Shown here: piece after piece, positions 23,152-30,811 of the stretch
Position numbering within the stretch: position 1 is the first letter of the stretch
How the letters are laid out: every line of letters starts with the position of its first letter
Assembly (NCBI GenBank): GCA_025055575.1
Contig: JANWWP010000017.1
Span: 19,764 to 83,763, forward strand
DNA length: 64,000 nt
DNA from: Flavobacteriales bacterium
GTDB taxonomy: Bacteria > Bacteroidota > Bacteroidia > CAIKAF01
Direction: 5' to 3'
The notes under the pieces: model-generated
The model's input: only the letters and a program-made list of their open reading frames with translations
What the model was told of the DNA's origin: nothing
The model's database searches: none
Position numbers and translations under genes: made by a program

Positions 23152-24453
23152 ATGGGGTGGATTTCCGGCGCAGTTTGGCTTGTGTTGTGCGGCGCCTGGA
23201 TCATGTGGGCAGGCCGCCATCTGACGCCCCGTGTCTCGCAACGTTGGCTGGGAGGGCTGTGGGCGTTAAAAATAGCCGCGGGGTTTGCGATATGGTGGAT
23301 TTATGCCCATTACTATTCGGATGAAAAAACAGGAGACATTATCTCCTATCATGCGGATGGTTTAGAGCTGCGAAAAATTTTCTGGCAGTCGCCCTTAAAA
23401 TACGTTCAGGTATTGTTGGGGATGCACAACAACTATGAGGAAGAATTTGCCCCACTCTACAACACCATGCGCTATTGGTACGAGGAATGGAAAGGCAGCA
23501 ACCTGATCATTGAACCGCGGAACATGATCCGTCTCAGTTCCCTGGTAGGCTTGCTGACGGGCGGCTGGATTTTCTCACACATTGTGGTTTTTTCCTGTTT
23601 GGCCATGCTGGGGATTTTGTTTTTGACAGCCGGATTTCGGAGCGCTGGCATTTTTTCGGACGAACGGTGGCTGATGGCCGGCGCCACCTTAGCGCCATCG
23701 GCATTGGCCTGGACTTCGGCCCCCATGCGCGAGGCGCCTATGATGCTGGGTTTGGGTATGGCTGTGGCGGGCGCCGTGTGGGTCCGTAGAAACCTTTCAT
23801 TCAAGGCTTTTGCTACGCTTCTTGGTGGTTTTTGGTGGCTGGCTTATTTTAAAACTCATGTGGCTCTGACTTTATTTATGCCGGTTGTATTGTATTTGCT
23901 AGCACCTGCTGACCGACGCCAAGCCCTGGTATTATATGGAGGCTCCCTTCTGGCGCTCCTGATATTTCTCTACGCCACCCCGTCAGGCGCCTTCGTTTTG
24001 AAAGTGGTAGCCAAAAAGCGGATAGATTTTATCCATGTGGCTGAGGTGTGGGAGGCCCGCAGCCGCATTCCGGTGCCGGAAGTCCCCCAACGTTTGGAAC
24101 AACTTCCACAAAGTGTGGCCCACGCCCTCACCAATACCTTTTTTCAACCTATGCCCTGGCGGGTCAAGGGCCTGCTGGACAGCTTGGCTTTGGGAGAAAA
24201 CATTTTGTTTTCTGCCCTTTTGGCTTTATCGCTCTGGCGGATCTGGCGGTTCCAGAATTTACCACTGAATTTTGTGATGCTGGTGGTTCTGTTCAGTTTT
24301 TTTCAGGCCTTACTGATAGGGCTTACCACTTCTGTCGCCGGTGCCATAGTGCGCTATAAATGCAGCATTCTGGCGATACTTACGCCTTTTCTTTTGTTAA
24401 GCCTCCAGCCAAAAAATGCGAGAGAAACAAAAAATCTCAAAACCGATGAATGA
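23152..24453 (+). CDS. Polytopic membrane protein, unknown function
   Basis: Multiple hydrophobic segments; -7 box TACATTTG 4 nt upstream of the ATG. Confidence 0.6.
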   Translation: MGWISGAVWLVLCGAWIMWAGRHLTPRVSQRWLGGLWALKIAAGFAIWWIYAHYYSDEKTGDIISYHADGLELRKIFWQSPLKYVQVLLGMHNNYEEEFAPLYNTMRYWYEEWKGSNLIIEPRNMIRLSSLVGLLTGGWIFSHIVVFSCLAMLGILFLTAGFRSAGIFSDERWLMAGATLAPSALAWTSAPMREAPMMLGLGMAVAGAVWVRRNLSFKAFATLLGGFWWLAYFKTHVALTLFMPVVLYLLAPADRRQALVLYGGSLLALLIFLYATPSGAFVLKVVAKKRIDFIHVAEVWEARSRIPVPEVPQRLEQLPQSVAHALTNTFFQPMPWRVKGLLDSLALGENILFSALLALSLWRIWRFQNLPLNFVMLVVLFSFFQALLIGLTTSVAGAIVRYKCSILAILTPFLLLSLQPKNARETKNLKTDE

Positions 24454-25384
24454 CGGTGATGGCGTATCCGTCAAGTTCCTTCCGGGCTTTTTCAAGATCT
24501 TCCGTAAAACCTAGCAGATAACCGCCACCGCCCGAACCGCACAACTTCAGGTAATAAGCCTCTGTTTCCAGACCGCGCTGCCACACTTTTTTGAATTTGC
24601 CCGGAATCATAGGGGTGAGATAGCTGAGCAGAAAGCGGCTCAGGTCTTTGACGTTGGCCAAAAGCTCCCGGGTCTCCCCTTTCAGAAAGGCTTTAATGCA
24701 ATTGTCGTTAAATGGAATCATCTCCTTTTTCAGGAGTTTAAGGAATCCTTTTTCTTTCCGGCATTTATCCAGGAAAAGATTGACGAGCGGCTTGGTGTTG
24801 CCGGGCGTCCCCGTGTTGATCAGGAAGATTCCACCCTTGCCGTTCAGACGCGATTCCGGGATGCCCACCGCATCAATGGCCGATTTGTTACGAATGAGAA
24901 GTGGGTGTTCTAAGTAACAAATTAAGGGGTCGATGCCCGAACTGGTGCCATGAAAATAGCTTTCCATGGCGGCCAGGTGGTTTTTCAATGTGAGAATTTG
25001 ATCCCCTGTTATGGACTCGTCGTTATAAATTTTATCAAAAGCGTACCTGTCATACACCGCCGCCACCAAGGCGCCGGAACTCCCCACCCCAAAGCCCTGC
25101 GGTATGGTGCTGTCAAAAATCAAACCTCTTTCTACATCACGCTCCAAGGCTTCAATATCCAACCGAAAGCCCAGGGAACCTTCCTCCTGTTTTTTCCTTA
25201 AAAAAGCCGCATATTCTTTGAGGCTAAGGTTGGAGGCACGGGCCTCCTCTTCCGTCAAATTGGAGGAGCTGAAGGCCAGTTTGCCTTTATAAAAATCGAA
25301 GGGAATGGAAAGCCCCATAGAGTTGTGAATGAGACTGTATTCCCCAAACAAGAGGATTTTAGATTTGAAAGTGTCTCTTTTCAT
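24437..25384 (-). CDS. GHMP kinase, probable mevalonate kinase
   Basis: KILLFGEYSLIH, PQGFGVGSSGALVAAV GHMP motif, CGSGGGGYLLGF; in mevalonate operon. Confidence 0.85.
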   Translation of the reverse strand: MKRDTFKSKILLFGEYSLIHNSMGLSIPFDFYKGKLAFSSSNLTEEEARASNLSLKEYAAFLRKKQEEGSLGFRLDIEALERDVERGLIFDSTIPQGFGVGSSGALVAAVYDRYAFDKIYNDESITGDQILTLKNHLAAMESYFHGTSSGIDPLICYLEHPLLIRNKSAIDAVGIPESRLNGKGGIFLINTGTPGNTKPLVNLFLDKCRKEKGFLKLLKKEMIPFNDNCIKAFLKGETRELLANVKDLSRFLLSYLTPMIPGKFKKVWQRGLETEAYYLKLCGSGGGGYLLGFTEDLEKARKELDGYAITVIHRF

Positions 25385-25388
25385 GGTT

Positions 25389-26483
25389 TCAGAGGATTCT
25401 TTCGGGCCCTGTACCTTCCTTATCTTGAATGATGTCTTCGGGACGCAAATTTAAACCGGATTTGGATATTAAGAAGTCATTAACATTTTCCTTTTCACTG
25501 TCCGGAAAAAGGAGATGCAAATTGGGCCCTGCGTCCAGGGTGAAGGTGACTCGGCATCCGGTGTTGGCACGGAAGGCTTTTAACGCATCCAACAGCGCAA
25601 GGGTGGTGGGTTTCATTAAAATAAACCACGGCCGGGAGGTCATCATCATAGCGTGCAAGGACAGCGCTTCGTGTTCAGTGATAAATGAAAAGGTCTCCCA
25701 GTCTCCAGAGACCAGGGCCATTTTCATCCTTTCAATATTCTGAAAAGCCTGGCGGAAACGCTCAGCAGCGTAAGGATGCCCATTCATAAGGCCATGGCCT
25801 GCGCGGCTGCTTACGGCTTTTTCCTGTCGATCGCACACCACAATCCAGTCGTTTAGACCCCGGAACTCCGGGTGAATATTCCATGAGACGGGAAAGGCTT
25901 CTTCGTCCGAGGATTTTTCTTCTAAAGGATGCTTTCCCCACAAGACAAAACCACCATACACAGAGCGGGAAGCGCTGCCCGAAGCCAGGCGCGAAAGGCG
26001 CGAGGCTTCGCTGAAAAAGTCTTCTTTTTTGGCTAAGGCGCCCGTGCATTCGTTTTCCAGTGTGCATAAAGCCAGGCAAAACGCGCTCATTCCGGAAGCT
26101 GAAGATGCAATACCCGCCGAATGCGGAAAGGTATTCCGCGAACGCACCCACAAGTGCTTTCCCTTGAGAAAAGGCTTTTGCGGCAGGAGGGATTGACAAA
26201 ATGTTTTCAGCTTGTCTTCAAAAGCAGGCTTAGGCTGGCCGTCCAAAAGAAAAGATACCTCCATGGCACCGCTTTCGGACTCCGTGCAGACCACTTCCGT
26301 TTCCGTGTAACAAGCAGAAAGGGTGATGCTCAGGGAAGGATTGGCCGGCAGCTGTCCTTCAAATTTTCCCCAATATTTCACCAGCGCAATGTTGGAAGGA
26401 CTTTTCCAGGCAGTGCGCACTAAAATTTGGGAGGGATCAGGAAACCGGGCTAACGAAGCGCTGGGCCATTCACTCTGTGTCAT
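25389..26483 (-). CDS. mvaD: Diphosphomevalonate decarboxylase
   Basis: WKSPSNIALVKYWGK, FPHSAGIASSASGMSA, VTFTLDAGPNLHLL; start at MTQSEW. Confidence 0.9.
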   Translation of the reverse strand: MTQSEWPSASLARFPDPSQILVRTAWKSPSNIALVKYWGKFEGQLPANPSLSITLSACYTETEVVCTESESGAMEVSFLLDGQPKPAFEDKLKTFCQSLLPQKPFLKGKHLWVRSRNTFPHSAGIASSASGMSAFCLALCTLENECTGALAKKEDFFSEASRLSRLASGSASRSVYGGFVLWGKHPLEEKSSDEEAFPVSWNIHPEFRGLNDWIVVCDRQEKAVSSRAGHGLMNGHPYAAERFRQAFQNIERMKMALVSGDWETFSFITEHEALSLHAMMMTSRPWFILMKPTTLALLDALKAFRANTGCRVTFTLDAGPNLHLLFPDSEKENVNDFLISKSGLNLRPEDIIQDKEGTGPERIL

Positions 26484-27393
26484 AAATAAATTCATGATAT
26501 TGAAACACTGGCCATAGATTGCGGGTTTCAAAATAGTTTTTTACTTCTTCAGGAGGTCTTTTGGTGTATGCCAGAAGGAAATCGCCACCCCATGCACCCA
26601 GGGATTTGACCACTCCCTCAAAGTCTTGAAATTGCAGAACCTGTATGGGAGTTTTCTGTATTAACAACCCAATTTGGTTTTCATGTTCTTTAAGAACTTC
26701 AGAGGCTGTTTCGAAATCGGAAGCTTTCAGAAAAGCTTGCGTGAGGGCCGAAATTCTCTCCACTATCTCCTTTTTTTTATTGGACGACACCTGACGATAA
26801 CGATGGATTTCATCGGAGGAGGACTGTTTTCGGCCAGAATACACAAAATAAAAATACCGTCGGACTTCAGGTGCAATGGAAACCGGCGCCACAAAGGGAT
26901 TAGATACCTGCGTGCGCTGATACAAAATCGGACCTTTAGCGAAGGCACAGGCCACGTCATAGCCCGATCCGCCGAAAGTATCGGCCTGCAGAAGATAGGG
27001 GTTCACCCCGGAAAAAGCGGCCAGAAGAGCCAGCAAAGTGGCGCTGCTGCCCAAGCCCCAAAAACGCGGATAATCCGTGGCAGTGGAAATCTTGGAAGAA
27101 AGAAATAAATTCCTTTGACCCGACAAAATCCGAGCGCTGGAAAGAATATGACCCAGCCGCCTAGCCAGTTCGGAATCGGTGGTTTCTACCACCTGAAGCT
27201 GCTTGTCAAAAACAGCCTGAAACCAGAGCTCCCCTTGGTCTTTAGCTTCCCAATGGAGCGACTCCGAAATATTTTTTTCCCAACGCATGCTTTGGCCAAA
27301 CACCACCGGTAGAGCCACACTTAAAGCCCCATCCAGAATGGCATACTCCCCCATGAGCAAAACCTTCCCCCGGGCCTGGAGTATTTCTGGCAT
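26470..27393 (-). CDS. GHMP kinase of the GYDIA type (GYDVA here)
   Basis: GKVLLMGEYAILDGA, FWGLGSSATLLALL, GGSGYDVACAFA. Confidence 0.85.
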   Translation of the reverse strand: MPEILQARGKVLLMGEYAILDGALSVALPVVFGQSMRWEKNISESLHWEAKDQGELWFQAVFDKQLQVVETTDSELARRLGHILSSARILSGQRNLFLSSKISTATDYPRFWGLGSSATLLALLAAFSGVNPYLLQADTFGGSGYDVACAFAKGPILYQRTQVSNPFVAPVSIAPEVRRYFYFVYSGRKQSSSDEIHRYRQVSSNKKKEIVERISALTQAFLKASDFETASEVLKEHENQIGLLIQKTPIQVLQFQDFEGVVKSLGAWGGDFLLAYTKRPPEEVKNYFETRNLWPVFQYHEFIYDTE

Positions 27394-28796
27394 CAGGATA
27401 ATTTAATATCGCTGATCACCTCAGGGGAAATTTTCTCAGCAGAGCCTTCAATCAGTCCCTCGCGCAAAGCTACCAGGTAACTCCGCACCGCATTGAAGCT
27501 CACTTTGTTGTGCTTGAAATATTCCACAGCCAATTCTTTTTCTTTTTCGGTGGCTTCAAAATGGTTCAAAATGTTGAGGAGGTGCATCTTCATGTGCCCC
27601 TTTTGTATGCCGGTGGTGACGAGAGATTTGAGGGCTGCAAAATTGTTGGCCATACCCATGGTGGCAGCTATCATCATCAGCTCCTGGGCCGAGGGATGCC
27701 CTAAGAGCTCCAGCGAACGCCGCGCCATGGGATGCAGACGGGTGAGGCCACCCACCACGCCCAGGGCCATAGGCACTTCCAGTACATAGCGAAAACGCCC
27801 CTCGGAGCTTTCCATGCGTGTGAGCGACCGATACTGACCATCCCGGGCGGCATACGTGTGCCCGCAGGCTTCTACGGCACGAAAATCATTTCCCGTAGCC
27901 AGAACCACCGCGTCGATGCCGTTATAAATGCCTTTGTTGTGGGTTGTGGCACGGTGGGGGTCCACCTGAGCCACTTTCACAGCTAAAGAAAATTTGCGCA
28001 TAAATTCCTGCGCCGAAAGGCCGCCATCAAAAGTCCCCAATTCTTCCACGGGACACTCCACCACACATTCTACTTTGCAGTTAGGGGTGTAATTGGATAG
28101 AATACTCATGATCACTGTCACCTCTCTCTCCGTGGCTTCAAGACCTTCGGCTTCCTGCATAAATTCGCGGAGGATCAAAGCAAATTCTTCCAGACAGGAA
28201 TTGATAAAATTGGCGCCCATGGAGTCGCAGGTATCGAAAATGGCCTTCACCTGATAGTATCCTGGCTCATGGTGCGTCATGTCCACGAGCTGGATGTCCA
28301 GAATGCCGCCGCCGCGTTTTTCCATATTTCCGGTGATGTGGCGAGTGCCGGCCAGAAATTGAGTTTTCAGTTCCGGGAAAAGCGCTTTGAGTTTTTCAGG
28401 GCGTCCCATCCAAATAAAATGTACCTGGCCTATTTTTTCGACCGATACGACGCGGGCCTGAAAACCACCGCGGGTGCTCCAGAATTTGGCGCTTTTGGCC
28501 GCCGCAGCTACCACAGAACTTTCCTCAATAACCATGGGCACGGTATACGTCCGGCCGTTGATCACCACATTCGGTACTACGCCATAAGGAAAGAAAAAGT
28601 TGGTAATGGTATTTTCACTGAATTCATCCAATTGCTTCTGGATATTTGGGTCCATGTGCCAGAAGGAGCGTATTTCTCTTTCGGCCTCAGAAGCATCCGG
28701 AAACAAGCCGCAGATGCGTTTCAGTTTTTCTTCCTTGGTCAGTTTTGAGAAACCATCCATACGGAGAGGCTTTTCTGAAGGATGTACAGGATTCAT
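27393..28796 (-). CDS. mvaA: Hydroxymethylglutaryl-CoA reductase, class II-like
   Basis: EESSVVAAAAKSAKFW, DSMGANFINSC, HNKGIYNGIDAVVLATGNDFRAVEA. Confidence 0.92.
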   Translation of the reverse strand: MNPVHPSEKPLRMDGFSKLTKEEKLKRICGLFPDASEAEREIRSFWHMDPNIQKQLDEFSENTITNFFFPYGVVPNVVINGRTYTVPMVIEESSVVAAAAKSAKFWSTRGGFQARVVSVEKIGQVHFIWMGRPEKLKALFPELKTQFLAGTRHITGNMEKRGGGILDIQLVDMTHHEPGYYQVKAIFDTCDSMGANFINSCLEEFALILREFMQEAEGLEATEREVTVIMSILSNYTPNCKVECVVECPVEELGTFDGGLSAQEFMRKFSLAVKVAQVDPHRATTHNKGIYNGIDAVVLATGNDFRAVEACGHTYAARDGQYRSLTRMESSEGRFRYVLEVPMALGVVGGLTRLHPMARRSLELLGHPSAQELMMIAATMGMANNFAALKSLVTTGIQKGHMKMHLLNILNHFEATEKEKELAVEYFKHNKVSFNAVRSYLVALREGLIEGSAEKISPEVISDIKLS

Positions 28797-28830
28797 AATG
28801 GTTTAAATAACAGTTATTTGTAGATTTTTG

Positions 28831-29853
28831 TTATGAATAATCCGAAAGTTTTTTGGGTTTCAAAAAGGCAAAAGCGGTTTGGAGCCCTTTGATTTGTGAT
28901 TTTGTAAAGACGTCCAGGGCTTTAGCATCTTGGGCCGCATATTTTAAAAAGGCCGAAGCTTGACCGTAGATGGCCGGAAGCGGAGATTGAGATATCAAAA
29001 AGTAACCGTCAAGAAAATTTTTTATGCCACCGGATACAATAATGTTCCGGGTTTGGATGGGAAACGCCTGTTTTTTATAAATTTTTTGCAGCATGGCCAT
29101 CATTTCCACGGCCGAATGTCCCACCAGCGCTAGCGGAGCCAGGCCCTCTGCATCAGGATTCCGATGGTTTTCGAGACGCGTAAAATTTGTGCCGCCGAAG
29201 CTTCCAAAGTCCACAGCCAGCAAAGGAAGCCGAAGCAAAGCCTCCAGCGAGGCCGGCCCAAATCCCTGACCCACTTCTTTCACAATGATGGGGAAGGTGG
29301 CATGGTTCAGACATTCCTGAATGACATCCAAGGGTCTGCGGCCGAAGCGATCGCCCTCTGGCTGCATCAATTCCTGAAGAGGATTCACGTGAATAATGAG
29401 ACCATCTGCCCCCAAACTGCTGACCAAGTCCTCTACGATTTGCCACTCACTCTTTTGTAAAATGCGTTCAATTTGAGCGATGCCCAAATTCGCAAAAAAA
29501 GGCACATCCGGACCCAACACCGGACGCAGATTGAAATCTGCCCATCGCGACCGGCTGTGCAGCAGGGGCCGGCAGGACCCCAGGCCCATGCCCAAACCAT
29601 AGCGGGCACACACCTCCGCCAAGCGTTGGTTGATGGTGTAAGCCGCCTCCGTGCCGCCGGTCATACTGCTAATCCAAATCGGGTACTGCATTTCCTTATT
29701 TCCGAGCCGCACCGGAAGGGTGGCAGATTCCTCAGGGTGGGGTGCCAGCATAGGCTCATAAAAGAAACGGGAATCCGCTTCTGAGACGCTCACCTGGGAT
29801 TCAAAAGCCAGCCGAATGTGATCGGATTTTCGGATATCCAGTTCTTCTTTCAA
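28831..29853 (-). CDS. fni: Type 2 isopentenyl-diphosphate delta-isomerase
   Basis: PIWISSMTGGTEAAYTINQRLA, LGSCRPLL, HVNPLQELMQPEGDR, VKEVGQGFG, DFGSFGGTNF; start likely TTG 29853 because the track start overlaps a -7 box. Confidence 0.92.
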   Translation of the reverse strand: MKEELDIRKSDHIRLAFESQVSVSEADSRFFYEPMLAPHPEESATLPVRLGNKEMQYPIWISSMTGGTEAAYTINQRLAEVCARYGLGMGLGSCRPLLHSRSRWADFNLRPVLGPDVPFFANLGIAQIERILQKSEWQIVEDLVSSLGADGLIIHVNPLQELMQPEGDRFGRRPLDVIQECLNHATFPIIVKEVGQGFGPASLEALLRLPLLAVDFGSFGGTNFTRLENHRNPDAEGLAPLALVGHSAVEMMAMLQKIYKKQAFPIQTRNIIVSGGIKNFLDGYFLISQSPLPAIYGQASAFLKYAAQDAKALDVFTKSQIKGLQTAFAFLKPKKLSDYS

Positions 29854-29859
29854 GGCCGG

Positions 29860-29867
29860 CAAATGTA
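29860..29867 (-). promoter_or_regulatory. -7 box TACATTTG, 6 nt before TTG 29853 (fni operon)
   Basis: Matches TAnnTTTG; overlaps the track start codon. Confidence 0.55.
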
Positions 29868-29971
29868 CAAAAGTTAATGGAATGTTAATGCCGGAGTTTT
29901 AAAAATGCGCTTCTTTGGTTTGGATCCACTCGGCAAAACAAATGATATGTGAAACGCCCTTTGAAAAACAA

Positions 29972-30001
29972 AAAATCCCAATCCGCGCGGATTGGGATTT
30001 T
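29972..30001 (-). terminator. Intrinsic terminator downstream of the 30020-30811 gene
   Basis: Perfect 30-nt palindrome aaaatcccaatccgcgcggattgggatttt followed on the minus strand by a T-rich run. Confidence 0.8.
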
Positions 30002-30019
30002 AAGGAATAAAGGGTTGAA

Positions 30020-30811
30020 TTATTTACCCAGGTGTACAAAACGTTTTGTAATAGTTTTTCCCTGAAAGGAGAGAGAGTAGGTGTAAATTCCTGCGGGCAA
30101 ATGTCGGAGATTCAGCTGATATTGATTCAGACCGGCCTGGCCCATGATATTTTTTTGTTCCACCACAGCGCCTGTGACGGAAGCCATTCTCAACTGAACC
30201 ATACCATGGCGTGGTAAGGTGAAAGAAATTTGGGTGAAGTCTGAGGTGGGATTAGGGGAATTCTGTGACACACTGAAACTATTCGAGTTCACGGTCATTT
30301 CTTCCTCCGAGGCGCTGCAACTTGGATTGATTTCAAAAGGTATGTAAAAGGCCGTATCAATCTGCAATACGAAGGATGCGGGAGTGCAGGTGTTGCTGGC
30401 ATGCACCCGTGCAGAAGCCGAGACTTTAATGTTATAGCTTCCAGCCACCGATCCATTGCCTAAGAAACGAAGGCAGGCACGTTCAAACTGATTGTTCTGA
30501 GGATTTAAATTAATTTGCTGGCCTAAACCTACCTGATTGCCATCTTTATATAATTCCCACATCCAGGATCCGGGGGGCAGTTGGTCCACGTTGTTGACGG
30601 TCACTTGGCAAATGAATACCGTCAAAGGCCCTACCGTTGTATTGGTGGGAAGGGTTACCGTGGTAGTTTCGTTATAATTCACCCCGGGCTTTGCGCAGGG
30701 GAGGGGCAGAATACCGCCCGAAGTGGTGGTATCCACCGGCGTACATGGCTGGGCCAAGAGAGCTCCTGCAGTGATGACGGTGCTGAGAGAAAGGAATAGA
30801 ATTTTTTTCAT
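30020..30811 (-). CDS. Secreted protein with T9SS type A sorting domain
   Basis: Signal peptide; C-terminal NSPNPTSDFTQISFTLPRHG...LPAGIYTYSLSFQGKTITKRFVHL. Confidence 0.85.
   Translation of the reverse strand: MKKILFLSLSTVITAGALLAQPCTPVDTTTSGGILPLPCAKPGVNYNETTTVTLPTNTTVGPLTVFICQVTVNNVDQLPPGSWMWELYKDGNQVGLGQQINLNPQNNQFERACLRFLGNGSVAGSYNIKVSASARVHASNTCTPASFVLQIDTAFYIPFEINPSCSASEEEMTVNSNSFSVSQNSPNPTSDFTQISFTLPRHGMVQLRMASVTGAVVEQKNIMGQAGLNQYQLNLRHLPAGIYTYSLSFQGKTITKRFVHLGK

Follow-up and report, generated by a model that had tools for sequence, protein, structure and literature searches.

A five-gene mevalonate operon in a Flavobacteriales genome with a GYDIA-family GHMP kinase as its probable phosphomevalonate kinase

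Introduction

Five consecutive open reading frames on the minus strand of a 64-kb stretch of Flavobacteriales DNA (the 64,000 nucleotides analyzed, hereafter the window) very probably make up a single unit that runs the lower mevalonate pathway of the eukaryote type, in which a GYDIA-family GHMP kinase acts as the phosphomevalonate kinase (PMK). The genes span positions 24437-29862 and are ordered fni, mvaA, GYDIA-family kinase, mvaD, and mevalonate kinase, as an initial annotation of the sequence had proposed; all five frames are open. Such an operon yields the universal isoprenoid building blocks from HMG-CoA. In the proposed scheme, MvaA would convert HMG-CoA to mevalonate, the kinase at 24437 would phosphorylate mevalonate to mevalonate 5-phosphate, the GYDIA kinase at 26470 would extend this to mevalonate 5-diphosphate, MvaD would decarboxylate the diphosphate to IPP, and Fni would isomerize IPP to DMAPP. 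The GYDIA protein would accordingly represent a GHMP-type PMK that has diverged too far for the standard PMK models.

Both the mevalonate pathway and the GYDIA family were already known, and the window is an ordinary, well-supported case. The genome paper on Elizabethkingia anophelis reported that Flavobacteriaceae seem to lack the PMK and proposed a non-orthologous kinase of the GHMP type instead (2014; PMC4026382). The mevalonate-pathway enzymes of Flavobacterium johnsoniae are credited, in a later paper that cites the work (PMC6780523), to Hayakawa et al. (2017; doi 10.1016/j.bbrc.2017.04.120). A literature search on GYDIA itself found no paper. F. johnsoniae, which belongs to the same phylum as the window's bacterium, reportedly makes use of a general mevalonate pathway whose kinases are distant relatives of known enzymes. 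Its PMK is presumably a GYDIA protein, and the PMK function of GYDIA has probably been shown already in a relative.

Operon organization

The source assembly that carries the window comprises 2.44 Mb and is 99.83% complete. With the GYDIA kinase counted as the presumptive PMK, its eukaryote-type mevalonate pathway genes are complete from HMG-CoA reductase to IPP isomerase. The first gene of the operon, fni (28831-29862, minus strand), encodes a type 2 isopentenyl-diphosphate isomerase that matches TIGR02151 with E 7e-54 and 182.9 bits (cut-off 281.3), spanning positions 2-326 of 338. It is followed by mvaA (27393-28796, minus strand), a class II HMG-CoA reductase scoring 271.8 bits against TIGR00532, above the cut-off, and 1e-84 against PF00368, and by the GYDIA-family kinase gene (26470-27393, minus strand). 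The diphosphomevalonate decarboxylase gene mvaD (25389-26483, minus strand) matches TIGR01240; its product bears NIALVKYWGK, GSASRS, and DAGPN and retains the decarboxylase features first remarked upon in the initial annotation, PSNIALVKYWGK and DAGPN. The last gene, mvk (24437-25384, minus strand), encodes a mevalonate kinase with FGEY, SSGID, and GSGGGG that matches TIGR00549 at 1e-20 and 74.5 bits (cut-off 163). Because both score below their curated cut-offs, the fni and mvk products are regarded as divergent members of their families.

The junctions are tight or overlapping, as had been noted. A 34-nt gap separates fni from mvaA, the mvaA stop and the GYDIA start have one base in common (TGATG, a 1-nt overlap), the GYDIA gene and mvaD overlap by 14 nt, counting mvaD from ATG 26483, and a 4-nt gap separates mvaD from mvk. 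The start of mvaD is most likely this ATG rather than TTG 26531, with which the longer ORF call begins. Junctions of 34, -1, -14, and 4 nt are compatible with one transcription unit, and all five mevalonate genes are presumably co-transcribed.

Upstream of the operon, a terminator-like hairpin with a 13-pair stem and a T tail lies at 29972-30001 on the minus strand. Closer to fni, TACATTTG (29860-29867, minus strand) matches the pattern TAnnTTTG, which we take to be the Bacteroidota -7-like consensus; it is one of three occurrences on the minus strand within 24300-30040. The start codon of fni is uncertain, as TTG 29862 falls within this element, whose designation as a candidate part of the operon's promoter is not secure. 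At the opposite end, the 3′ end of mvk overlaps by 17 nt (24437-24453) the 3′ end of a convergent plus-strand ORF (23152-24453), which appears membrane-protein-like and is without a family match.

The GYDIA-family kinase

The identification of the GYDIA kinase as the PMK, offered as a candidate assignment in the initial annotation, is now strongly supported by profile, motif, fold, and phyletic evidence, from which its activity is predicted. The protein scores 282.8 bits against NF040656 (cut-off 225) and covers profile positions 3-299 of 299. Its motifs comprise GKVLLMGEY (9-17), GLGSSAT, GSGYDVA (142-148), and KSLGAWGGDF (263-272); the GGSGYDVA that the initial annotation likened to the motif of eukaryotic PMK is indeed present, and the resemblance documented here is to bacterial PMK. 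In a set of 57 GYDIA proteins (the window protein and 56 from public loci), GSGxD(I/L/V)A is found in 56 of 57 and GxGGD in all 57. Both motifs occur in four of four canonical bacterial PMK proteins, where they read GSGVDIA and GAGGGD, and in none of 16 homologues of the neighboring 24437 kinase. The latter carry mevalonate-kinase-like motifs, namely, SSG(I/V/L)D (16/16) and GGGG (15/16). Profile-profile comparison with hhalign gave 2.5e-14 between GYDIA and PMK, 7e-11 between GYDIA and mevalonate kinase, and 7e-8 between mevalonate kinase and PMK, with a PMK profile built from four sequences.

The relatives were retrieved with a 24-sequence alignment; used as a single sequence, the window kinase found nothing in the PDB or among the genome contigs. 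It has no match at E<=0.001 to the Gram-positive PMK model TIGR01220 (cut-off 165.7), to which three of the 57 GYDIA homologues have a match (best E 0.00098). The absence of a conventional PMK from the operon, as first described, is borne out in that TIGR01220 has no match in the genome.

The AlphaFold2 model of the GYDIA kinase has a pLDDT of 96.2. Ranked by E-value, its first Foldseek match is the mevalonate kinase of M. jannaschii (1kkh); of the 50 listed matches, 3gon, the phosphomevalonate- and AMPPNP-containing PMK structure of S. pneumoniae, has both the highest TM-score (0.75/0.71) and the lowest rmsd (3.9 Å). The modeled structure agrees with a PMK assignment, with which it is compatible without being decisive alone.

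Genomic context and phyletic distribution

The genome was searched for other routes to the same products. Neither DXR nor IspH, the two MEP pathway genes tested, has a match in the 99.83%-complete genome. The model GHMP_kinases_N has three matches in the genome; outside the operon it detects a galactokinase and a heptose-7-phosphate kinase, the latter adjoining a SIS-domain-like gene. These three matches cannot exclude all other divergent kinases, since the model misses GYDIA itself, and a search with TIGR01220 was added on account of this blindness. This Gram-positive-type model, the one PMK model of the genome-wide search, likewise has no match. The genome-wide search for other PMK or MEP genes that the initial annotation had proposed as a check is therefore negative for TIGR01220, DXR, and IspH, and GHMP_kinases_N adds no PMK.

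Across a sample of 248 Bacteroidota genomes, all searched for GYDIA, DXR, and mvaD alike, GYDIA is above its cut-off in 36 and DXR is found in 212; the two sets are disjoint and together account for all 248. The GYDIA-positive genomes fall into four families (f1, f4, f5, and f6), and the class's other sampled families are DXR-positive. At E<=1e-29, mvaD is present in all 36 GYDIA genomes and in four others, an association with a Fisher p of 3e-44 that ignores kinship and overstates independence, as the genomes are related. Canonical PMK (TIGR01220) is absent from the 36 GYDIA genomes, in which two matches are at noise level (22 and 25 bits), and the four other mvaD genomes have DXR together with a canonical PMK adjoining mvaD. 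In this sample, then, GYDIA occurs exactly where the mevalonate pathway is needed without a standard PMK.

A cluster of mvaD, PMK, and HMG-CoA reductase accompanies DXR in genomes G159, G227, and G235 of family f24 (loci L034-L036 and L042-L044) and in G066 of family f17 (L037, L045, and L048). The HMG-CoA reductase frame in these four genomes is about 755-779 residues long, and part of it re-matches the PMK model; judged by sequence, it may encode a reductase-kinase fusion.

Alternative assignments

The two kinases of the operon could have their roles swapped, with GYDIA as the mevalonate kinase and the 24437 protein as the PMK. By sequence alone, GYDIA proteins fit mevalonate kinase models better than PMK models: TIGR00549 is matched weakly by 51 of the 57 members and TIGR01220 by three, and a GYDIA profile search of the PDB returns M. 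jannaschii mevalonate kinase at the top. However, the 24437 family is closer to mevalonate kinases, reaching 6e-24 against TIGR00549, and solved mevalonate kinases lead a PDB search with a profile of its 16 homologues (2x7i, 4e-15). Mevalonate kinases also hold Foldseek ranks 1-18 for the AlphaFold2 model of the 24437 kinase (pLDDT 91.6), with 3gon 26th at a TM-score of 0.61. Together with the distribution of motifs, in which SSGID and GSGGGG mark the 24437 kinase and the GSGxDIA and GGD of PMK mark GYDIA, these relationships make a swap unlikely, and we infer the substrate of each kinase accordingly.

Two further readings would remove GYDIA from the PMK step altogether. MvaD scores 172.3 bits against TIGR01240, barely above the cut-off of 171.35, which leaves some opening for an archaeal-type route that proceeds through a mevalonate 5-phosphate decarboxylase and an isopentenyl phosphate kinase, with another role for GYDIA. 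Yet the phosphomevalonate-decarboxylase model gives MvaD 70.5 bits of a required 475, and GYDIA is strictly coupled to mvaD across 36 genomes, so that this route is very improbable. It is just as hard to credit that GYDIA is a second kinase serving another pathway and merely travelling with mvaA: although NF040656 is still a hypothetical equivalog in NCBIfam and mvaD and mvk are sited elsewhere in many genomes, no further PMK candidate was found with TIGR01220 across the 36 genomes, and the presence of GYDIA matches the absence of MEP exactly. A PMK role for GYDIA is thus the reading that we retain.

Supply of HMG-CoA

The gap in the pathway lies upstream of the operon's chemistry. HMG-CoA synthase, already noted as missing from the window, is also undetected in the whole genome: PF01154 has no match, and TIGR01835 and TIGR00748 match only two FabH genes (L058:3222-4229 and L059:3698-4696), one of which adjoins plsX. 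These two were considered as synthases and rejected, scoring 376 and 352 bits as FabH versus 45 and 28 as synthase. HMG-CoA lyase (NF004283) has no match in this genome and is found at E<=1e-45 in the other 35 of 35 GYDIA genomes.

The same pattern extends to relatives. TIGR01835 is matched at E<=1e-45 in 16 of the 36 GYDIA genomes; the 20 without a strong match, this genome among them, have FabH-level matches only and include many Flavobacteriaceae-like f5 genomes. No HMG-CoA synthase was found in the same-genus genome G248, and one was found in a single genome (G249) of the 14 others in the family. That this genome and about half of the sampled GYDIA Bacteroidota operate the mevalonate pathway without a recognizable HMG-CoA synthase, and here without the lyase too, is a doubtful proposition; if true, an unrecognized synthase, the breakdown of leucine, or an external source would supply HMG-CoA. 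A divergent HMG-CoA synthase that escapes the models is the plainest possibility. The synthase gap may merit more attention than the kinase.

Comparison with known systems

The window kinase is a full-length member of the NF040656 family with all of its invariant motifs, 31-43% identical to the sampled members, and its GYDIA signature reads GYDVA. The NCBIfam model is a hypothetical equivalog without an assigned substrate. The comparative evidence from the window argues cleanly that NF040656 be named "phosphomevalonate kinase," a change that would fill a gap in the annotation of Flavobacteriaceae, Saprospiraceae, and other Bacteroidota. Among characterized structures, the S. pneumoniae PMK (1k47/3gon) has a fold in common with the GYDIA kinase (TM 0.75 to 3gon), and its GSMGDLA and SSGAGGGDC are a looser form of the GSGxDIA-like loop and GGD motif of GYDIA. 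The motif K-S-x-G-A-x-G-G-D is common to the GYDIA kinase and the Gram-positive-type PMK, reading KSLGAWGGDF in the window kinase and KSSGAGGGDC in the latter, whereas the aligned structures are about 17% identical and TIGR01220 is not reached.

Gene order was compared across the 80 best-scoring GYDIA loci from named genomes. The gene mvaA adjoins GYDIA in 63 of them, a fni-mvaA-GYDIA run is present in 18, and nine carry the complete set of five arranged as in the window, so the compact operon is not peculiar to the window. These nine belong to Marinilabiliaceae (including Carboxylicivirga mesophila and Marinilabilia rubra), unclassified Bacteroidales, and two Bdellovibrionota MAGs. Complete or near-complete fni-mvaA-GYDIA-mvaD-mvk clusters occur in Bdellovibrionota MAGs (Oligoflexia, Bacteriovoracaceae; L125 and L158), whose GYDIA proteins pair at 100/98 support and are nested inside the Bacteroidota proteins, a placement that, on sequence grounds, might reflect cross-phylum transfer or a binning error.

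In the GYDIA tree, the window protein falls weakly among Saprospiraceae/Lewinellaceae proteins, none above 43% identity, and no well-supported set holds it. The sampled clusters of these families contain at most fni-mvaA-GYDIA, in contrast to the five genes of the window, and the sampled Flavobacteriaceae have mvaA-GYDIA and mvaD-mvk as separate pairs instead of a single five-gene run. The closest parallels in organization come from Carboxylicivirga mesophila, Marinilabilia rubra, and Bdellovibrionota MAGs, whose clusters comprise the same five genes in the same order and on the same strand, with distant sequences.
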